In this document: piece by piece, positions 25,098 through 48,100 of the stretch | Position numbering within the stretch: the first letter of the stretch is position 1 | Layout: each line of letters begins with the position of its first letter | NCBI GenBank assembly: GCA_025769875.1 | Contig: JAGFNK010000223.1 | Span: forward strand, 16,034-80,033 | DNA: 64,000 nt | Direction of reading: 5' to 3' | DNA from: Russula earlei | Lineage: Eukaryota; Basidiomycota; Agaricomycetes; Russulales; Russulaceae | Position numbers and translations under genes: made by a program | The notes under the pieces: generated by a model | Database searches by the model: none | What the model was told of the DNA's origin: nothing | Seen by the model: the letters and a program-made list of their open reading frames with translations, nothing else

Positions 25098-27210
25098 TAA
25101 GAGCGATCAAGACACGCACACTTTTTGGAAATGCGATTTCTTATTCCTCTCTCTGTACGTAAACAAGTCGAGATGCAAGAGGCTTCCATCATCGTTTCCA
25201 CCAACTTTATAAGAGAAGTGATGTGGAACACGTTTCGCTGCGCAACGCAAGGGATCATGCAATCATTAATCATGGACACGGGTGGATTAGTGTTCCCACA
25301 AGAAGCATACGAAGTAGCGCGCGCAGCATACCGCGAAAAGCCGGACGCACCTCCGCCTCCGGGAGTATTAAAAATGGAGAATTCTATAATCTAGCCACCA
25401 TTACCACAGCGTAAGATACAACGGAAACCGAGACAGTCGCGTGATATCAAGGCTCCCCAATACCGCTGAACTTGTACGCGATCGTCTCTCTGACCCATCT
25501 CGACTTGCACAACATCCACAGCATCCAATCCCGTACAGTGAAGATGTGAATCGGCGACCACGAAAACATGTCTCGGACACCAGGCGCCATTCCCACCGCG
25601 CCTGCCATAACCTTGGCGACCCCAATCACATTGACGGCGCGCTCGCGGCGCAAGGCCATATGCGCAGCGCACCCTCTCGTCTGTCTCGGGAGATGTGCCA
25701 GCCGTGAGCGCGGCAGCGATGATAGGGCCAAGAGAGACGCCGTCGCGAAGGCCGAGGTTCATGCCTTGGCCACCAGCAGGTGGGTGGATGTGAGCCGCAT
25801 CACCAATGAGGCACACCCTCGCGCCAGTGGATCCCGCTCCATTGCTGCTGCCGCCGCCAAAATAGGTGAAAAACGTGTCCGCGACGGCGTACTTTCGTGC
25901 GGAAGCGCGTGGACCAGACAACGTCGGTCACCTTGATTGCGTGAGGGTTCTTGTTCTTGTCGCAGGAGAGCGAATGCGGCCCGTACTTCTCGATCAGCGC
26001 CTGGCAGTACTCTACTGACGATTTAGATGGAGGTGCGCCGTCGGTGAGAGGTACTCCGCAGGCCAGTCGATAGATTTGCTTTCCGTTGGCGTCCTTGGAG
26101 CCTGCAGTGGGATGCTGCAGATGCGCCAAGATGAAGAAACTCTCCAAGCTGAGCACAGCGTAGAGCTTGTCTGTGATGTGGGGAGTTCCATCGAATGTGA
26201 TGTCGGCGATGACCATCTGAGCTAGAGTGTTCATGGCCTCTGGCTTGCCAGGAGTGGTGCCGGGGTCCGCAAATGCTACGCCCGACAATTGGCGCACCTA
26301 ACAAAATAATCACAGTTAGCATCGGATTTAGTGATGCTCGACGGTATGAGAGCACATACCATAGATTGGGAGCCATCAGCACCGATGACGTATTGAGCCG
26401 TGATAGACTGGCCATTCTCGAACAAAACGTCCACGGCACGGGCGTCTTGATGATTTTCGCGCATGTCCACGGCTTTGTAGGGACGATATATGGGGACACC
26501 GACGTCCTTCAACTTTTGACTGAGAACGTCTTCGGTGATACGCTGAGGGAGAAGAACGAAGTACGGGTGGCTTGTTTTTCCAAGTAGGCCGTCGGTGAAG
26601 TCAACGCCCATCAAAAGGTTGTCGGAGCGGTCGTAGTAGTTCATTGAGGCACCCTTGATTCCGCGTGCGACCAAAGAATCAGCGCAGCCGAGAGAATCCA
26701 GCGCCTAGGACCGAGTTAGAAAGACGAAAGGATTGCGTCCAGGGACCCAAAGCCTCACCTCCAAAGTTGCGGCATGGATAACTATCGCACGAGATGCGTT
26801 ACTGACGCCAAGAGCTTGTTCGTCTGCATCGACGATGACTACATCCTTGACGCCAGAATCCCAAAGGGAGATGGCGCATGCCATGCCGGCAGGCCCTGCT
26901 CCGACAACGAGGACTCTTGTGCTCGACGGTAAGGACATTTGGATGAAAAAAAACGCGTGTAAATGAGGAGTGAACAAGGGCTGAGAGAAGGGGGGGGGGG
27001 GGGGGTTTAAATACATCGACGCAGAGCAGAGAAGAGGCTGGTCATGGTCGCCATTGAGGTAAGTCACAGAGTCTTGGATAAGTCGTCGGAAAAGGAAAGC
27101 AAGAGGTCAGAGGCGAAGTCTGGAAGCACTAGACAGTGTGTTATAGTTCGACGTTGAGGTGGATGAGTCCGACTGCGCCGGAAAGTCTGTTGGATCGCCA
27201 TGGGAAGAAC
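25098..27210. repeat. Left arm of large inverted repeat carrying a monooxygenase gene copy
   Basis: Reverse complement of 28370-30478. From 25098 to about 27110 the match is about 99% by eye, including introns and 3' flank. It then weakens inward over about 100 bp. Small differences include a G16 versus C12 run near the gene start, a 2-bp GA repeat change near 25147, and scattered single-base changes. Confidence 0.9.
25439..26928 (-). pseudogene. FAD-dependent monooxygenase, frameshifted inverted copy
   Basis: The gene structure is the same as the intact right-hand copy: three exons, two introns, start at 26938-26936 region reading MSLPSSTRVLVVGAGPAGM. Two 1-nt insertions disrupt the third exon. 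One lies near 25893 (an extra A after TTCCGCACGAA), before the GD motif CLIGDAAHIHPPAGGQGMNL. The other lies near 25668 (an extra T in the GGTGCGCGCGCAT stretch), after SPETDE. Each shifts the frame, so the C-terminal third cannot be made as in the intact copy. Everything else is nearly identical, so inactivation is recent. Sequencing error in one arm is an alternative. Confidence 0.8.
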
Positions 27211-28369: not shown

Positions 28370-30478
28370 TCATCCGTTCCTTGGCGACCTCAATAGACTT
28401 TCCGGCGCCGTCGGACTCATCCACCTCAAAGTCAAACTAAAACGTTGTCTCTAATGCTTCCAGACTGCGCCTCTGACCTCTTGTTTCCTCTTTTCCGACG
28501 ACTTATCCAAGACTCTGTGACTTACCTCAATGGCGACCATGACCAGCCTCTTCTCTGCTCTGCGTCGATGTATTTAAACCCCCCCCCCCCTTCTCTCAGC
28601 CCTTGTTCACTCCTCATTTACACGCGTTTTTTTTCATCCAAATGTCCTTACCGTCGAGCACAAGAGTCCTCGTTGTCGGAGCAGGGCCTGCCGGCATGGC
28701 ATGCGCCATCTCCCTTTGGGATTCTGGCGTCAAGGATGTAGTCATCGTCGATGCAGACGAACAAGCTCTTGGCGTCAGTAACGCATCTCGTGCGATAGTT
28801 ATCCATGCCGCAACTTTGGAGGTGAGGCTTTGGGTCCCTGGACGCAATCCTTTCGTCTTTCTAACTCGGTCCTAGGCGCTGGATTCTCTCGGCTGCGCTG
28901 ATTCTTTGGTCGCACGCGGAATCAAGGGTGCCTCAATGAACTACTACGACCGCTCCGACAACCTTTTGATGGGCGTTGACTTCACCGACGGCCTACTTGG
29001 AAAAACAAGCCACCCGTACTTCGTTCTTCTCCCTCAGCGTATCACCGAAGACGTTCTCAGTCAAAAGTTGAAGGACGTCGGTGTCCCCATATATCGTCCC
29101 TACAAAGCCGTGGACATGCGCGAAAATCATCAAGACGCCCGTGCCGTGGACGTTTTGTTCGAGAATGGCCAGTCTATCACGGCTCAATACGTCATCGGTG
29201 CTGATGGCTCCCAATCTATGGTATGTGCTCTCATACCGTCGAGCATCACTAAATCCGATGCTAACTGTGATTATTTTGTTAGGTGCGCCAATTGTCGGGC
29301 GTAGCATTTGCGGACCCCGGCACCACTCCTGGCAAGCCAGAGGCCATGAACACTCTAGCTCAGATGGTCATCGCCGACATCACATTCGATGGAACTCCCC
29401 ACATCACAGACAAGCTCTACGCTGTGCTCAGCTTGGAGAGTTTCTTCATCTTGGCGCATCTGCAGCATCCCACTGCAGGCTCCAAGGACGCCAACGGAAA
29501 GCAAATCTATCGACTGGCCTGCGGAGTACCTCTCACCGACGGCGCACCTCCATCTAAATCGTCAGTAGAGTACTGCCAGGCGCTGATCGAGAAGTACGGG
29601 CCGCATTCGCTCTCCTGCGACAAGAACAAGAACCCTCACGCAATCAAGGTGACCGACGTTGTCTGGTCCACGCGCTTCCGCACGAAGTACGCCGTCGCGG
29701 ACACGTTTTTCACCTATTTTGGCGGCGGCAGCAGCAATGGAGCGGGATCCACTGGCGCGAGGGTGTGCCTCATTGGTGATGCGGCTCACATCCACCCACC
29801 TGCTGGTGGCCAAGGCATGAACCTCGGCCTTCGCGACGGCGTCTCTCTTGGCCCTATCATCGCTGCCGCGCTCACGGCTGGCACATCTCCCGAGACAGAC
29901 GAGAAGGTGCGCGCGCATATGGCCTTGCGCCGCGAGCGCGCCGTCAATGTGATTGGGGTCGCCAAGGTTATGGCAGGCGCGGTGGGAATGGCGCCTGGTG
30001 TCCGAGACATGTTTTCGTGGTCGCCGATTCACATCTTCACTGTACGGGATTGGATGCTGTGGATGTTGTGCAAGTCGAGATGGGTCAGAGAGACGATCGC
30101 GTACAAGTTCAGCGGTATTGGGGAGCCTTGATATCACGCGACTGTCTCGGTTTCCGTTGTATCTTACGCTGTGGTAATGGTGGCTAGATTATAGAATTCT
30201 CCATTTTTAATACTCCCGGAGGCGGAGGTGCGTCCGGCTTTTCGCGGTATGCTGCGCGCGCTACTTCGTATGCTTCTTGTGGGAACACTAATCCACCCGG
30301 TGTCCATGATTGATGATTGCATGATCCCTTGCGTTGCGCAGCGAAACGTGTTCCACATCACTTCTCTTATAAAGTTGGTGGAAACGATGATGGAAGCCTC
30401 TTGCATCTCGACTTGTTTACGTACAGAGGAATAAGAAATCGCATTTCCAAAAAAGTGTGCGTGTCTTGATCGCTCTTA
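28370..30478. repeat. Right arm of large inverted repeat
   Basis: Reverse complement of the left arm. The outer limit is sharp at 30478: TAAGAGCGATC is shared and the flanks differ immediately outside. The inner limit is gradual between about 28460 and 28370. Confidence 0.9.
28642..30131 (+). CDS. FAD-dependent aromatic-type monooxygenase, intact copy
   Basis: Class A flavoprotein hydroxylase (FAD_binding_3 fold), using NAD(P)H and O2 on a presumably aromatic substrate; the substrate is unknown. Three exons, 28642-28821, 28876-29220 and 29283-30131, give 457 residues with introns of 54 and 62 nt. Exon 1 holds the Rossmann motif RVLVVGAGPAGMACAISLWD and ends its beta2 with VVIVDAD. Exon 2 holds YVIGADGSQSM (DG motif). 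Exon 3 holds ARVCLIGDAAHIHPPAGGQG then MNLGLRDGVSLGP (GD motif). The C-terminus stops after SGIGEP, close to the end of the FAD domain and shorter than phenol 2-monooxygenases, which carry a thioredoxin-like extra domain. A C12 run lies about 60 bp before the ATG. It is the partner of the frameshifted inverted copy. Confidence 0.95.
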
Positions 30479-30811: not shown

Positions 30812-33800
30812 CTATCACCTATGGGGAACTCGCCAGTTCACGACCATCTCGCCGATTTCATTTTCCCCTGTATCTGCCTGAACAACTACATTTAAAACTT
30901 CATATTTATACTATTGAGTGCCATTAATGTCATTCTAGCAATGAAAAATGGAGGTCCATCGAGTGGTTTTCAAGTTATATTTTGGCTGGGGGTCATGCCT
31001 GCATCATGCCTTCTGTCATGGCAGAGTGCAGAGTTTGATTCCAACTGGGTGATCACATACACTGACTCTGAGGGGTCTGGGGTCACTGCTATTCTATCCC
31101 TGTAATGCCATGTTACAGATGGTCCAGTCGGCCAGCACAAGACCACACATATGAGCAGCGGCTACAGGCTGCTTTGAGTGACTACAACAATGGTATACAT
31201 TGATCTTTTGCTTGTGCGGCACTGGCCCATGATGTGAGCGCTGCGTTCCGTACATCACAAAGTCCTTATCCAATAATTTCCAAGGTTTCCCACCGGACGC
31301 TACAAGACAGAGCTTCTGGGAGGCATAGGTCATGTCAGGAAGCCCACCAGGACAGCCAGCTTCTCAAGCCGGCCCAGGAAAAGACGTTGTTCGATTGGTG
31401 TGACCAAATGTCCATGAAGGCGATGCCTCTGGATCAAAAGGCACTGTGCGCTCACGCTCTGGACCTCTCTGGCCAGTACCCTGGAATAAACTGGCACTAT
31501 CAGTTCATCAAATGCAATTCCGGTCTGACTTTCTCAAAAGCAAGAGCGTTGGATCCAAAGCGTGCACAAAATTTCAATAAGGCAGTAGTCCATGACTACT
31601 TTGCAAAACAACAGGAATTGGTGGATAGTTACAACGGGATACCACCGGAACATCAGTGGAATATGGATGAGAAGGGAATTCAAATGGGAGGTGGCCATAA
31701 GAACAATGGAAGGAAGTTCTTATTCATGAAAGAATGGAAACAGCGATACCGTATCAAGAGTGACTGTCTGGAGCTCGTCTCCATCATTGAGTGGGTTTCA
31801 GCAGGTGGATTTATTATGCCATCGGGCTTTGTCCTCTCAGATGGCCCACTGCCTGACTGCCAGGATTTGGAAGGTGTTGGAAGGTGAGTTTTAATCCAGC
31901 GGTATGGCAGCAAGAATTAATATCTTTGTCTTCACAGCATCGCAATGTCCCCTTCTGGGTGGACAGATCGCGAAATATGCGAGCGATGGTTCCATTCTGT
32001 ATTCATTCCATTCGCTACTACACATCGTGTTAACAACAAGCCAATTGTACTGACCCTTGATGGGCACAGCTCACATGAGACCCCGGCCATGCAGCAACTC
32101 ACATACAACAACAATATCATACTGTTCTGCTTCTCTTTGAAGACAACACACAAGCTTCAGCCACTTGATGTGTTGGTTTTCGCACCAGTCCAGCGCACGT
32201 GGTCATCGCATTGCAACTGCTGCCTTGCCGAAGGTATCAAGATCACACATTATAATGTCATCCATGAATACATGGAGATTTGGAAAGTTATCACCCCGGA
32301 ACTCATTCAGAACACATTCTGCAAGTCCGGAATATGGCCCCTCAATCCATTGGTCTTCATGGAGGAGGACTTTGCGCCTAGCATGGTGTCATCATCTTTG
32401 TCGTGCTTCCCATCCTCATACCCGATAGAGGTTCCAACATCGCCTCCAGCAATCAGCTCGGACCTCAGTTCCGACTCTGGTGACGGTGATTACAGTGCCT
32501 CGGACTTGGAGGAAGGAGGGGAAGGAGTGTTAGATCCTTCTGGAGTATGGCAACAAGATAAGAGGGGCTCTGCAGATGGGGTAGGAGTCAACTGGTTGGG
32601 ATTGGCAAACTAAGTTGAGCTTAGGGCTCAACTGTTACAACAGGGGGCCTTATATAGCCCTACAGGGATAAGGTTTGTGCTACTGTAGTACTGGTCGGTG
32701 CTATAGAAGCAAAACGCGGCTCATAGAAGCGAGGTTGCTTCTATGTAAATGATCTCGGTGTTGGAAGCATTAAGTGCTTCCCTAGTAGCAATCTTGGTGT
32801 CATAAGTACTTTCCTAATCAAGGAAGCGACGTACGTGGCAGTACAAGAACATCTGGAACAGAAGCAATGCTACTCATTGCTTCTTCAATACATCTTCAGA
32901 TAGATACGATCAATGCGTTCCAAATGCGATATCAATGAACATAAACGATAAAGATCTGATGCACATATGATGCAAACGGTACAGTCCGTAGTTCAGGTGT
33001 TCCAGCATTCTCTGGACCCCAAACCACTCGGTAACAGCATGCAACTCAATAATCACATGCGCGTCTTTGGCACAGACCACGGAGGGGGTCATTTCTAATG
33101 ACCAAGTTGTCTCTCTGCTCCAAGATCAAAAGCGGAGCCATCAAGAGCTGATTGTGAAAATACAATCTCTTCATCAACAAGTTTCCGTCCTCACACAAAC
33201 AGTAATCATGCAAGCATCGCAACTGAGTGCGGTGAATGCACACTGCATGATCGCCCAGCGAGAGGCCAACGATTTGCATGCAAAGCTGGAAAATCAGCGA
33301 AAAACAAAACCACATTCTTCAACAAAGATCAAGGCCCGGTTTGTAACGCATCCTGAGCTGAAGGAAGCATTTGAAGCAGAGGAACGAAACCGAATTACCC
33401 AGGAGAGACAAGAAATACAAAAGTGCACTGAGAAAGCTGCTGAGGATTCTGCCCGTGCAATACAAATTAGTAAAGGTACTGTCTCAAAGGTTTTCAACAA
33501 CTCTCTTTCATCATACAAGCGCAAGGAAGACCTCATGATCATTGCAGGTGCACTTGAGCTCTTGATGGAGGGCACCACATCTGAGCTCACCACACAAATC
33601 AAAGAGCACCTTGCTGCACATCCAGAGTTGGAAATCAACCAACAGTTTATGGGACTCTATGGCAGATGACATAGTAGTATGCTGTATCCCTCCTCATTGT
33701 CCCTGGTCTCCGAGTCATCAGGAGGACCCTCAAATGCAGCACAACCATTTGCACAACTGTCCTCACTGACACACCACTTGGTTTTTGCTTACAGCACTAC

Positions 33801-37523: not shown

Positions 37524-39248
37524 ATGCGCGCCTCGGTTTCTGCCATATTCTGCCTCGCCGTTGGTATCGCTCCATCGTTCGCGCTTCCTGGATTGTACGC
37601 CCACCGCGTCAAGTTATCTCTCCTCCTGAAGTTGACTTTACCTTTTAGTGGTCAAGGTCAATCAGACGACCCACAGGCCCGGCTTGAAGCGTTGTATGCC
37701 CACCTCGCAAGTTCTCTTTCCTCCCTGAAATTGACTTTACCTTTTAGGCTTAATCGACAAGGAGCTTCGTTACGATCGTCCGCGCCTCATGGCTTGTACG
37801 CTCACCGCGTCAAGTTATCTCTCCTCCTGAAGTTGACTTTACCTTTTAGTGGTCAAGGTCAATCAGACGACCCACAGGCCCGGCTTGAAGCGTTGTATGC
37901 CCACCTCGCAAGTTCTCTTTCCTCCCTGAAGTTGACTTTACCTTTCAGGCTTAATCGACAAGGAGCTTCGTTACGATCGTCCGCGCCTCATGGCTTGTAC
38001 GCCCACCGCGTCAAGTTATCTCTCCTCCTGAAGTTGACTTTACCTTTTAGTGGTCACGGTCAATCAGACGACCCACAGGCCCGGCTTGAAGCGTTGTATG
38101 CCCACCTCGCAAGTTCTCTTTCCTCCCTGAAGTTGATTTTACCTTTTAGGCTTAATCGACAAGGAGCTTCATTACGATCGTCCGCGCCTCATGACTTGTA
38201 CGCCCACCGCGTCAAGTTATCTCACCTCCTGAAGTTGACTTTACCTTTTAGTGGTCAAGGTCAATCAGACGACCCACAGGCCCGGCTTGAAGCGTTGTAT
38301 GCCCACCTCGCAAGTTCTCTTTCCTCCCTGAAGTTGATTTTACCTTTTAGGCTTAATCGACAAGGAGCTTCATTACGATCGTCCGCGCCTCATGACTTGT
38401 ACGCCCACCGCGTCAAGTTATCTCACCTCCTGAAGTTGACTTTACCTTTTAGTGGTCAAGGTCAATCAGACGACCCACAGGCCCGGCTTGAAGCGTTGTA
38501 TGCCCACCTCGCAAGTTCTCTTTCCTCCCTGAAGTTGATTTTACCTTTTAGGCTTAATCGACAAGGAGCTTCATTACGATCGTCCGCGCATCATGGCTTG
38601 TACGCCCACCGCGTCAAGTTATCTCTCCTCCTGAAGTTGACTTTACCTTTTAGGCTTAATCGACAAGGAGCTTCATTAGGATCGTCCGCGCCTCATGGCT
38701 TGTACGTCCACCGCGTCAAGTTATCTTTCCTCCCTGAAGTTGACTTTACCTTTTAGGGGTCAAGGTCCATCATCGCCCGTGCCTCATGGCTTGTACGCCC
38801 TCTCGTCACGTTAGCTTTCCTCCCTGAAGTTGACTTTACGCGAACCTAGTGGGTCAGGCCACTTGCAGAATCTACCGCCTCCACCGTACTCGGAAATTGA
38901 TCCATAGTACGTTGTCTTTCCTCCCTGAAGTTGACTTTACCTTGTAGACCTAGTGCTAGTGTGCCAAACAGGTCTGCATCTCCCGTGCCTCATGAAGTGT
39001 ACGCCCACCTCGTTATCTTTCCTCCCTGACGTTGACTTTGACTTGTAGACCTGGTGTGTCAAAGCAGGGTCCATCGTCCCCACATCAAACGTACGTCCAC
39101 CTCTTCAAGCTGTCTTCCCTTTCTGAAGTCGACTTTACCGTGCAGAGATACTTCTGCGTCCCGATCCCGATCCCGGTCCCGGTTCAGCATGCGGAGCATG
39201 ACTAGGGGGAAGAAGAAAGACGGGGGTTCATCATCAAACAATTATTGA
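37524..39248 (+). CDS. Small secreted repeat protein encoded by a tandem exon-intron array (17 exons)
   Basis: The start MRASVSAIFCLAVGIAPSFA is a clear signal peptide. From 37595, five 201-bp units each read intron A (54 nt, GTACGCCCACCGCGTCAAG...TTTTAG), exon a (45 nt), intron B (54 nt, GTATGCCCACCTCGCAAG...TTTTAG), exon b (48 nt). Spliced, each unit gives 31 residues: GQGQSDDPQARLEAL then LNRQGASLRSSAPHG plus a junction Phe. Further introns are 38600-38653, 38702-38756, 38793-38849, 38907-38953, 38999-39048 and 39091-39145. The last exon (39146-39248) encodes a Ser/Arg tail (SASRSRSRSRF) ending NNY-stop. The CDS is 867 nt, 288 residues. All 16 introns are phase 2, and all internal exons are multiples of 3. 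No Cys and no dibasic KR/RR sites occur in the mature repeats. The function is unknown. The unspliced frame is also open to 38756. Confidence 0.78.
37595..38599 (+). repeat. Five tandem 201-bp units, each two exons plus two introns
   Basis: Units start at 37595, 37796, 37997, 38198 and 38399, and a partial unit begins at 38600. Identity between units is about 97% or more, with a few substitutions such as GGTCAAGG/GGTCACGG and TTTTAG/TTTCAG. Introns A and B also resemble each other over their 3' halves (CTGAAGTTGACTTTACC). Confidence 0.95.
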
Positions 39249-41302: not shown

Positions 41303-42352
41303 TCGATCCACCAATTGCGCTTGCCATCGAGCCAGTGTGATTTGAGGACGTGATGATATCTAAAAAATGATTAAGTCATCTTATCTGTGGATCAGTTGGA
41401 ACACATAAGCTTCGATCAACATATTTGTGTCCCCTTCCTCAAAGATATGCCAATTTTTCCAGAAAAGCATGGACCACATATGCACCACAGGCATCCATTC
41501 ACACCCAAGGTAGTTCACAAAACTTTGTGGGACCTGAGGATCAGTGGAGATCTCCTCCCAGATTTGCAGAAAGTCGGCCTGATCATCTGTATGTACCCAT
41601 CTCTTGATCTTATCCCACAGATCAGGAAATTCAGTTGTATTGAAGTGTGATTGCATCGCGCGCAACACGTGCCATTTGCAAAGCCATATCCGACTTCCCA
41701 GATAAGCAATCTTGAGGGCGGCAATCTGCATGGCATCATGATCTGTCATAATAATAGATGGCCGGATAGCTGGACTGGCATCCCTGACCCAATGGACAAA
41801 AAAGGAAATTGTGTCCGTTGTTCCATTGGATGCCAGCATCCAGGCAACAGGCACACCTATCCAGAAAAGGTAAGCGCGCTAAATTGACATTTAGTAAATA
41901 TTATGCACCATGTCCCTAGTGATCCCGCGCGATCATGGTAAATAATAAAAAGTCCGGATATTGAGTAATATTATGAGTTGCATCAATACCAATGAAGCCG
42001 TTCCCAAGGCAGCGGAATGCCTCCATTTGGAAAGGGGTCTGGATGCATAACACATATGCATCCTCCTGCAGATTTGACTGAGATGGGGCACTGTGCAGCC
42101 TATCTTTGTAAAATACATTTGTATTTTCATCTCTCAATCTGTCCAACCAGAGCCTGGTGGAGATGGCATCCTCTGGATGCAGCCTGATATCGTTATCTTC
42201 AATTTCCTGGGCCATGCGGCTCACATCCCGAAGCGAGATGAATCGGTCTCGGCTGCCATCAGGCGACGAATCCTGAATATCGCATACCTTTCAATTCATT
42301 AGGTTAGCGATTAAAAATAAATTCAATGCACACTTACTATTTCCCATGGATC

Positions 42353-45133: not shown

Positions 45134-48100
45134 TGGCACAACCAAAACTGCATATAGCATTGGTGAACATGCGCAAACGCAATGCTATGACACACGCTCT
45201 ACTGAACAGTGCCAACAAAACTGACCTTATCTTCATACAGGAACCCTGGTTCAACAAGATTGGCACAGCCCGGAAAGACAATGCCCGAGATGGAATCGAC
45301 GTATGGGGTGGGGTGGCCTCACCAGCCTGGGAAATCCTCTACCCAGGGCTCAATGACGGACAGAAACCTAAGGTAATGTCGTACGCATGAAAGCCGCAGC
45401 TGGACAGCAAGATAGCTCCCAGCTGCACGGCCATAACGAGACAGGACATCTGCAGACACCCATGCGTGCAAGCAATGGACATAATACTTGACAACGAAAC
45501 ATGGTGAGTAATTAATTTCTACCACGACATCAGAGATGCTACTGCCCTAGCAGCACTCACCTCAATAGAAATCAACCCCAACACCCCGACACTGGTAATA
45601 GGGGACTTCAATACCCACTCCCCAACCTGGTCACTGCCAGGAAACCCCAAGTCACCCTGGGCCAACCAAGTAGAAGACTGGGCCGCAACTAACCTCCTTA
45701 GCCTAGCCAACACACCCGGTGAGACAACACACAAAGGCCCTGCCCACGGAAGAGATTCAACATTAGACCTGGCGTGGTTCAACGCTGCAGCGGTAAGGCA
45801 CGCCACTTTCACTGGACTGAGCATAGACTGGCCTGGCTCCCTTGGCTCAGACCACGCCATGCTCCGACTCATGGGGAACCCCCTCACACCTGTCACAAAC
45901 ACCAGAACGAACTCTCCTGACCCAGGGTACTTAGTGGACACAGAGCAGAAAGAGGCATGGATCAAATCCTTCAAAGCGAACTGCGAAAACTGGACCCAAC
46001 CCCCATGCCCAACAAAAGAGGATATGGATGAGGAGGTAAACAGATATATGACTGACATTCAAAAGACAAATGAAGCTTCCTTCAAAACCAGACACCCATG
46101 GAGCTGATGCACCGCACCCTGGTGGAACATGGAATGCAAAAGGGACATGCAAACCCTCAAAGAGGCCCCAGATCGGGATGGAAAGAAGGGAGTGCAAAAA
46201 TGGCTAAAATCCACCATTCAAGAGGTGAAACGCCAATGGGCCAACAACTACATTGACACCGCCCAGTTCTGGGAAGTCGCAACTTGGAGGCATGGATGCA
46301 AAACCACACAAGTCCCCCCCTCAGGGGATCAGAAGGTTTCTCCAACTCACACGAAGAAATGGCTAAAACACTTTCACAGTGCTTTTTCATCACAGAGAGA
46401 CAAGAAGTGGAAACACATCAACCCGATGACCCAGCCCCTATTCCACAACGCACACTTCCAAGGGTCCACAAAGAACTAGTAAGTGACCTCCTACAGAAGG
46501 TTTCAGGGTGTTCCGCACCAGGTCCCTCTGGCCACTCCTGGACCATCATAAAATGGGCCTGGGAGGCGAACCCAGACAGACTCCTTTGGCTCCTCGAGAA
46601 TTGCCTCAAAGCTGGACATCACCCAAACACTTGGAAGGAGGCGCTAGTATGCATCATACCCAAACCAAACAGAGCAGACTATACGCTAGCCAAAAACTTC
46701 CAGCTGATAGCGTTACTGGAGTGCATGGGTAAGCTCCTGAAAAACATAGTGGCTAGACTCATCTACCAGGACATGGACAGACACAATCTCGTCCCCACAA
46801 CCCAGTATGGCAGGCAAAACGCATCATCAACAGTTGATGCAGGGCTTGCGCTCCTTCATGACATACAGGCCGCGCACCAAGCGGGCCTCCATTGCGGTCT
46901 CCTACTCTTCGACATCCAAGGCTTCTTCAACAACATCAACCACCAAAGACTTACCCAGGTAATTCGGAACCTAGGTTTTGCTTTGGAGATAGTGAGCTGG
47001 TGCCACTCTTTCCTGACCAACAGGAAGGTTTGACTACGATTCAACGGACGCACCTCAGACCCTTCGACCTAGATGCTGGCACACCCCAAGGATCCCCAGT
47101 CTCACCAGTACTATCCATCCTGTACACTTCCCCCATGCTGCACAAGGCGAAAGAGTGGAAACAAGCCACACTAGCCATGTACATCGATGATGGAGCTATC
47201 TTCGCCTGTGGCCAAGATTGGGCGGCAGTGGAGTCGACACTCCGGATGGGCTACACGGAATGTGCTAACTGGCTAGCTAAAGCGGGACTCAACATTGAAC
47301 CAGAAAAAACTGAGGTAACCTTCTTCAAAAAGCAGAGGGAGAAAGCGGTCCTACCCTGCCGTATACACCTACCACTCTCATCCCACAACACCTATTATCG
47401 TGTAGCAACAACTGACACAATCAGATACCTGGGTTTTTTCTTCGACACCCGCCTCTCCTGGACACAACACGTTGACTACATGTGTAACAGAGCGAGAGCT
47501 TCCCTTAGAGCTCTCCAGCTACTAGGCAACTCGGTCCAGGGACTGGAGCAAGCGAAGTGGAGACAGGTATACCTAGCAATCTGCCTCCCCACGCTAACTT
47601 ATGGCCACCAACTGTGGTACACAGGCAAACAAATCAAGCTGGTCAAGAAGTTACAAGTTGTCCAGAACAAAGCAGTCAAGGTAATTGCAGGAGTCTTCCA
47701 CACGACCCCAAGGGAGCCCCTCCACCACTTGCTGACCATCCTCCCAATGAAGATATGACTAGGCAAACTAACGAACAATGCAGCAGTGAGGCTACATCGC
47801 ACCACAAGGCACAGTCAACTTCAAAGAAGACTAGGAGGTGACTGGCACGACCAACCGAACCACAATGAGCCACTACCGACACCAAATAGCACCAAAGCAA
47901 AGACCACCCTAAGGTCATTAGCACACCGAACAACTCTGAAAAGCCCACGTATTGAAGACTTCCCCCACCTCCCACCAGGCGCCCCAGACTGGAATGGACA
48001 GGTAAAGATTGAATCAAACAACCCACAGCTCCCAGATGCCCAGCAAACACAAGACACTTTGACCAGACTTACGGAACAATGCCATACAGGAAACGCCATC

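Follow-up and report, generated by a model that had tools for sequence, protein, structure and literature searches.

Within a 64,000-nucleotide stretch of the genome of Russula earlei (Basidiomycota, Russulales; hereafter the window), positions 37524-39248 of the forward strand carry what is likely a lineage-restricted, effector-like micro-exon gene, grown by the copying of an intron and by the tandem duplication of small exon-intron modules. The gene would encode a secreted and probably disordered repeat protein of 225 or 288 amino acids. Its spliced architecture, as deduced from the DNA, appears real and is well supported by relatives: two paralogs, family-wide evidence of intron splicing, deposited gene models and the substitution pattern all back the core of the first-pass annotation, which had described a secreted repeat protein built from tandem exon-intron modules. 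That description holds, with the correction that the gene is not isolated and represents one branch of a large family.

Gene structure and repeat array of the window locus

A splice parse resolves the 1725 bases at 37524-39248 into 17 exons and 16 GT-AG introns, all of the latter in phase 2. The exons measure 71 nt, then alternately 45 and 48 nt, followed by 48, 36, 57, 45 and 42 nt and the last exon, and each of the 15 internal exons (36-57 nt) is a multiple of three; the introns comprise eleven of 54 nt and then five of 55, 57, 47, 50 and 55 nt. Joined, the exons give 288 codons and a stop (867 nt), the stop ending at 39248. The re-parse thus reproduces the 16 phase-2 introns and the unbroken 867-nt spliced frame claimed at first pass, together with the internal exon lengths (45, 48, 36, 57, 45 and 42 nt, all multiples of three). 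With internal exons that are multiples of three and introns all in phase 2, the gene can gain or lose modules and keep its spliced frame intact. Tandem Repeats Finder places the array at 37574-38653 (period 201, 5.4 copies, 97% match), in a register that starts 21 bases inside exon 1, and this result and the parse confirm a 201-bp unit with two 54-nt introns and exons of 45 and 48 nt. Of the array introns, to which a TTGAC branch-like site had been assigned, introns 6, 8 and 10 carry TTGAT instead. A profile of 40 family introns (including intron 1 of the window gene and of its paralogs on contigs C335 and C471) recovers all 16 introns, with E values from 4e-14 to 9e-7, and finds no further match with E <0.05 in the whole 64-kb window. 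The features are as follows, placed by the splice parse unless another basis is given.

37524-37594 (+): exon 1, signal-peptide-like MRASVSAIFCLAVGIAPSFALPG, ending in phase 2; common to the family
37595-37648 (+): intron 1, 54 nt; profile match; its homologue in deposited members of the family is spliced
37574-38653 (+): 201-bp tandem array, 5.4 units; register from inside exon 1
37649-37693 (+): exon A, 45 nt, GQGQSDDPQARLEAL type
37694-37747 (+): intron 2, 54 nt; an apparent copy of the intron, its flanks differing from those of intron 1 (parse and flank comparison)
37748-37795 (+): exon B, 48 nt; last ~21 nt like the end of exon 1 (parse and shuffle test)
37796-37849 (+): intron 3, 54 nt
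37850-37894 (+): exon A copy
37895-37948 (+): intron 4, 54 nt
37949-37996 (+): exon B copy
37997-38050 (+): intron 5, 54 nt
38051-38095 (+): exon A copy
38096-38149 (+): intron 6, 54 nt (TTGAT)
38150-38197 (+): exon B copy
38198-38251 (+): intron 7, 54 nt
38252-38296 (+): exon A copy
38297-38350 (+): intron 8, 54 nt (TTGAT)
38351-38398 (+): exon B copy
38399-38452 (+): intron 9, 54 nt
38453-38497 (+): exon A copy
38498-38551 (+): intron 10, 54 nt (TTGAT)
38552-38599 (+): exon B copy
38600-38653 (+): intron 11, 54 nt
38654-38701 (+): exon B copy, without a preceding A exon
38702-38756 (+): intron 12, 55 nt; the stop of the unspliced frame lies here
38757-38792 (+): exon, 36 nt
38793-38849 (+): intron 13, 57 nt, acceptor CCTAG
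38850-38906 (+): exon, 57 nt, encoding PPPPYSEIDP
38907-38953 (+): intron 14, 47 nt if the second AG is the acceptor; choice of the first AG (end 38947) shortens it to 41 nt and leads to a stop
38954-38998 (+): exon, 45 nt
38999-39048 (+): intron 15, 50 nt
39049-39090 (+): exon, 42 nt
39091-39145 (+): intron 16, 55 nt; similar last intron in C335 and C471
39146-39248 (+): last exon, with the Ser/Arg tail and the stop
37524-38756 (+): unspliced 410-aa open reading frame (rival reading)

We infer that the window transcript is spliced in this way and that its product is secreted, the N-terminus being a signal-peptide-like stretch (judged by eye), MRASVSAIFCLAVGIAPSFA. It is followed by 31-residue repeats, FGQGQSDDPQARLEALLNRQGASLRSSAPHG, and then by Pro/Ser- and Ser/Arg-rich ends, a composition that gives the impression of a probably disordered protein. 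No dibasic KR, RR or KK occurs inside the 31-residue repeats, and no Cys in the mature part. Kex2-processed repeat peptide precursors carry dibasic KR/RR sites between their repeats; such sites are absent between the repeats of the window protein. PPxY-type motifs (PPPPYSE, PPPAYDQ twice, and PPPPYPG) occur across the window protein (exon 38850-38906) and the C471 protein, and we take them to be possible WW-domain ligands.

The open spliced frame had been offered as an argument for splicing. The frame is indeed open, but over the array this argument alone fails to exclude an unspliced message: from the same ATG, an unspliced open reading frame of 410 aa (frame 0) runs to 38756 and is broken only at intron 12. 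The array is open without splicing because its first 11 introns are 54 nt long and stop-free in that frame, so that an open spliced frame over the array alone is no evidence of splicing. Keeping any single one of these 11 introns adds only 18 residues (288 to 306). The 54-nt intervals could accordingly be translated, either always, as the 410-aa protein, or in part, as exitron-like isoforms with 18-residue inserts, a reading that is weighed below against the relatives.

Intron 14 (38907-38953) has a 5′ half shorter than usual by ~14 bases and retains two competing acceptors. The first AG, at 38947, leads to a stop at the junction and a protein of 225 aa, as does retention of the intron; only the second AG, six bases on, yields the 867-nt frame with the last 63 residues and the Ser/Arg tail. 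Since that second AG is required, the tail is the least certain part of the protein, and its inclusion in the spliced frame, as first proposed, holds for the second acceptor only.

Transposon remnants lie near the gene at 31945-32613, 41381-41854 and 46284-47758, and the domains detected within 10 kb comprise a DDE_1 endonuclease, LINE-like reverse transcriptase fragments and, scoring under its cut-off, a MULE-like domain. The window also contains FAD-binding monooxygenase-like fragments at 25391-26674 (-) and 28906-30131 (+), inverted and ~2.2 kb apart, several of which share identical open reading frame translations.

Relatives sharing exon 1 and intron 1

Many places in the genome resemble the first ~121 bases of the window gene, which take in exon 1 and the greater part of intron 1 (the best 40 were scored). 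A 35-base exon-1 pattern, allowing up to 3 mismatches, occurs at 79 places and a 26-base pattern at 161, whereas the same patterns reversed, as controls, occur at none. A set of 63 places was collected, many of them as stretches only ~600 bases long, and 48 could be parsed; the medians given here come from these 48, a few identical duplicates and the three arrays among them. The window gene has both the exon 1 and the intron 1 of this family. After intron 1, the spliced frame runs for a median of 86.5 codons, compared with 20.5 and 20 in the other two frames, and it is the longest of the three in 41 of the 48 loci. The median open reading frame is 111 aa spliced and 44 aa unspliced, the unspliced one being longer in 10 loci, the window among them. 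A non-redundant set of 40 cassettes was obtained by keeping introns of 45-60 nt and dropping L037 and L039 (phase-0 donor), L048 and L056 (length) and repeated cassettes; their donors are mostly GTACGC (30) or GTATGC (6), their introns measure 47-57 nt, and 32 of the 40 introns are not multiples of three.

A search with a family profile yielded 14 deposited proteins, each of them from Russula earlei, and one more was found later; all 15 are annotated as hypothetical proteins. Nine are identical, letter for letter, to the predicted spliced protein, P0002 and P0009 are two residues off at the junction, P0014 agrees over its first 57 residues, and P0013 has no matching locus among those examined. 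At L072 (contig C265), the donor of intron 1 is lost, and the deposited P0005 reads the former intron as coding. With nine spliced predictions as query, five identical deposited proteins were retrieved, P0002 nearly so, and three predictions were not found; P0008, P0010, P0011 and P0012 are identical to predictions outside that nine-protein query. The deposited models may stem from gene-prediction software and not from RNA evidence. The window protein itself was not found among the deposited proteins searched (~150-480 aa and ~120-383 aa; best 8000 candidates by shared words). Protein searches for relatives returned only R. earlei, under a requirement for shared five-residue words by which distant relatives could be missed. 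In Pfam, ten proteins gave no match at or above a family's own cut-off; TMP_C, DUF3037, Erythro-docking and TruB_C, suggested for the window protein, and one match of P0001 fell below the curated cut-offs and were rejected. NCBIfam returned nothing for five proteins, which is weak evidence from a bacterial and archaeal library. A literature search found no description of a family with such a repeat, so that, as far as Pfam, the literature and the hypothetical status of the deposited relatives go, the first-pass view that the repeat belongs to no described family stands.

Among the matches listed, arrays occur only in the window, C335 and C471. The C471 locus (L035) has 11 introns of 55, 55, 58, 58, 61, 55, 55, 67, 55, 55 and 55 nt, all leaving a remainder of one on division by three, and ten internal exons of 57, 42, 48, 48, 39, 48, 87, 39, 42 and 33 nt, all multiples of three. 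Loss of the usual TAG, with the next AG used in its place, lengthens four of its introns; the eighth intron, which the splice pattern missed, was placed by hand and has the branch-like site TTGTC. Spliced, C471 encodes 219 aa; unspliced, a stop follows after 38 codons, and retaining any single intron gives a shorter protein. The deposited F5148DRAFT_1291235 (P0015) is identical to the C471 splice model over its first 182 residues, through ten of the 11 introns and at all four lengthened ones, and keeps the last intron. The C335 locus (L034) has 13 introns, mostly of 53 and 54 nt alternating in the repeat, four of them with the weak-looking donor GTCCGC; its 3′ modules are out of frame, and its protein is 191 aa long.

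Substitution pattern and proposed growth of the array

Comparison of the window and C335 over one repeat unit reveals 19 changes at 68.7 nonsynonymous sites and one at 24.3 synonymous sites (dN 0.345, dS 0.042), along with 8 changes in 106 intron positions of the unit. The nonsynonymous rate differs from the synonymous one (p = 0.019) and from that of the introns (p = 0.0005), and from all silent changes with the 3′ introns included (19/290; p = 5e-6). The test covers a single unit of our choosing, 31 codons per array, units within a locus being alike and counted once. Around it, 16 of 242 upstream bases and 2 of 71 in exon 1 differ; the two 3′ exons compared (1/36 and 5/42) do not evolve faster, and the last exon, taken together with its 3′ flank, has changed more (74 of 423 positions). 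Such a distribution of changes agrees with exons that are translated and introns that are not, and within the repeat unit it points to selection for change. Elsewhere in the family, 41 proteins were compared, a set that excludes the three arrays, L037, L039 and all identical copies, and pairs were used if they aligned over 35 residues or more with an identity of at least 40%. In the five pairs that align best, exon-2 dN is 0.18-0.27 and dS 0.12-0.41, and the pooled values (pN 0.38, pS 0.50) give no general excess of dN over dS. As exon 2 has there diverged at both kinds of site, positive selection is unsupported across the family and is retained for the window/C335 unit only. A special conservation of the intron was rejected: intron interiors diverge (0.267) like exon-1 synonymous sites (0.302) and upstream DNA (0.271; 153 pairs, the 40 distinct cassettes giving 780), so that their conservation is ordinary.

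These data bear on the translation of the 54-nt intervals. Such a reading gains from the open 410-aa frame with its 11 three-fold, stop-free introns, from the eight of 48 parsed loci (window included) with a three-fold first intron, whose retention leaves the frame open in each case, from P0005, and from a second branch with two intron copies (see below), where the frame stays open with both introns kept in four of six loci and is out of frame either way in the other two. Against this, retention of homologous introns shortens the protein for every intron of C471 and for any one of the first ten of the 13 in C335, most of the distinct family introns are not multiples of three, and the divergence of the introns, unlike that of the exons, resembles that of silent sites. 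Moreover, judging from the sequences, the stop-free 54-nt form could be reached from the usual 55-nt form by the loss of one base, so that the property requires no selection. On balance, translation of the intervals, whether constant or partial, seems improbable to us.

The locus might alternatively be a decaying, unexpressed array, once a working gene, whose modules still duplicate as a DNA repeat. The shortened intron 14 with its stop-producing first acceptor, the out-of-frame modules of C335, the transposon-rich surroundings and the absence of the window protein from the deposited candidates would agree with decay. It is nevertheless an unlikely account, given that GT and AG are kept in 16 of 16 introns and phase 2 in 15 of 15 internal exons, that nonsynonymous changes far exceed silent ones without introducing stops, which is not expected of a dead array, and that the C471 paralog has been deposited as a gene.

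For the micro-exon gene that we favour, the steps of growth can be partly traced. Exon B closes with ~21 bases that look like the end of exon 1, a likeness equalled by none of 2000 shuffles, and the intron that follows equals intron 1 at 53 of 54 bases; the end of exon 1, the intron and exon A were therefore probably duplicated together. Intron 2, between exons A and B, shares 48 of 53 bases with intron 1, but the similarity of their flanks does not exceed that of shuffled ones (p 0.40 and 0.21); it may have been copied alone, or its flanks may since have changed. In the paralogs, the exon-end test gives p 0.008 for exon B of C335 and <0.01 for three of eight C471 exons, while the remaining five, like both A exons, fall short of the 0.05 level; the C471 modules are alike in their upstream flanks (score 5.8, against 2.4 when shuffled) and, less distinctly, in their downstream ones (3.7 against 2.3). 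In the second branch, six loci (L094-L099, on C50, C62, C260, C465, C1020 and C1090) have intron 1 and another copy ~140 bases on, the copies being identical at 47-52 of 54 bases in the four compared, with flanks matching at 7-13 of 30. As intron copies without shared flanks occur in two branches, at least two copying events within the family seem likely, with gene conversion between copies as an alternative that could keep them alike.

Copies without shared flanks would also be expected if the intron were an introner-like mobile element inserting in many genes, the array being one hot spot. Searches with three intron patterns, by which only close copies can be found, gave 32, 39 and 29 matches (overlapping sets), with no unrelated host gene among the loci examined. 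Family exon 1 lies upstream in all nine examined of the ten non-array contigs with the first pattern (C807 left out) and in 19 of 20 examined loci of the other two, which cover part of the places; at the remaining locus, L101, the match starts no earlier than the end of exon 1. With 28 of the 29 non-array loci counted thus belonging to the family, spreading through the genome was set aside, and we hold the mobile-element explanation to have a low probability.

Intron 1 may additionally mark a border. In C105 and C51 (L043 and L051), 50-base bins are 96-100% identical over 800 bases upstream, within an aligned stretch that extends to the edge of the examined DNA, 2.2 kb upstream, and fall after intron 1 to 75, 46, 54, 40, 71, 84, 80 and 53%, then to background. 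In C1194 and C571 (L052 and L053), exon 1 and intron 1 are unchanged and exon 2 has a dN of 0.23 and a dS of 0.21, and in most other pairs compared, upstream similarity is gone after 150-400 bases. If genes exchanged their 5′ part as far as the intron, near-identical 5′ sides beside diverged mature exons would be accounted for; assembly haplotypes, or duplications that end there, could be responsible instead.

On the favoured reading, the gene belongs to a large family of presumably secreted small proteins that have in common a signal-peptide exon and a ~55-nt first intron, the two elements by which the members were recognised, with a gene-specific downstream part. In the branch of the window, C335 and C471, the intron would have been copied into the second exon, and intron-plus-exon modules would then have been multiplied in tandem, in the window as the 201-bp unit with two introns. 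The spliceosome would remove the introns, the signal peptide would direct the product out of the cell, and the repeat region would be under selection for change, most likely because of contact with a changing partner, whether host root, other microbes or fungi. Russula species are ectomycorrhizal, and candidate effectors are usually marked by being secreted, small, repeat-bearing, lineage-restricted and fast-changing and by lying in transposon-rich DNA, traits that the predicted window protein would share, its lineage restriction as far as the searches reach. We rate the chances that the product acts as an effector, with a tree root, other fungi or microbes as its partner, as about even. More tentatively, a single fungal intron may have served as a point of both growth and exchange, being copied, multiplied with micro-exons and placed at the border between a near-identical 5′ part (promoter, signal exon and intron) and strongly differing mature parts, with stop-free three-fold introns adding retention isoforms; we consider this possible but doubtful.

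Comparison with known micro-exon and repeat systems

The nearest structural parallels come from animals. The bicycle genes of aphids, candidate effectors in plants that evolve fast under positive selection, have many very small internal exons, nearly all in phase 2, with ~17 exons on average (PMC9168663), and the window gene likewise has many small phase-2 exons (15 internal, 36-57 nt). They differ in belonging to animals, in having a CYC motif of their own and, in the description given there, in showing no tandem array at the DNA level (PMC9168663), whereas the R. earlei gene is fungal and its introns and exons are copies that are close to identical. The window protein shows no relation to bicycle or CYC proteins: its mature part is free of Cys, and protein searches returned only R. 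earlei. Micro-exon genes (MEGs) of schistosomes are described as having very small symmetrical exons and secreted products whose mature part evolves faster than the signal peptide (PMC4350168). They are reportedly restricted to platyhelminths and vary their proteins by alternative splicing (PMC4350168). The window coding region, as parsed, also consists mostly of very small symmetrical exons.

Among fungi, the SP7-like effectors of Rhizophagus combine a signal peptide, 6-11 hydrophilic repeats and a conserved intron before the first repeat (PMC11333574), and a signal peptide, repeats and a conserved intron are also features of the window gene as predicted. As described there, however, they belong to Glomeromycotina, some have a nuclear localisation signal, and they have one conserved intron rather than one per repeat; the signature that closes their repeats, Y[KR]Rx[AP]x[AP] (PMC11333574), is absent from the spliced window protein, judged by inspection. 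Introner-like elements of Dothideomycetes are near-identical intron copies within one genome, reported from unrelated genes (PMC4457414); the likeness lies in the near-identical intron copies, but those seen in R. earlei stay in one gene family. By the sequence features compared, the window gene belongs to none of the four systems, and in structure it resembles bicycle genes and MEGs. Micro-exon genes for secreted proteins are already known; in fungi they are new as far as we have searched. Genes of this kind are easily missed or mis-called, and the window gene was not found among the best 8000 deposited candidates. In aphids and schistosomes, the origin of such genes is hard to see, presumably because the copies are old. 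The R. earlei copies look young, with modules 97% alike in one locus and diverged in two paralogs, and together with a separate branch in which the intron was apparently copied once, they make intron gain, module growth and rapid protein change testable within one species.
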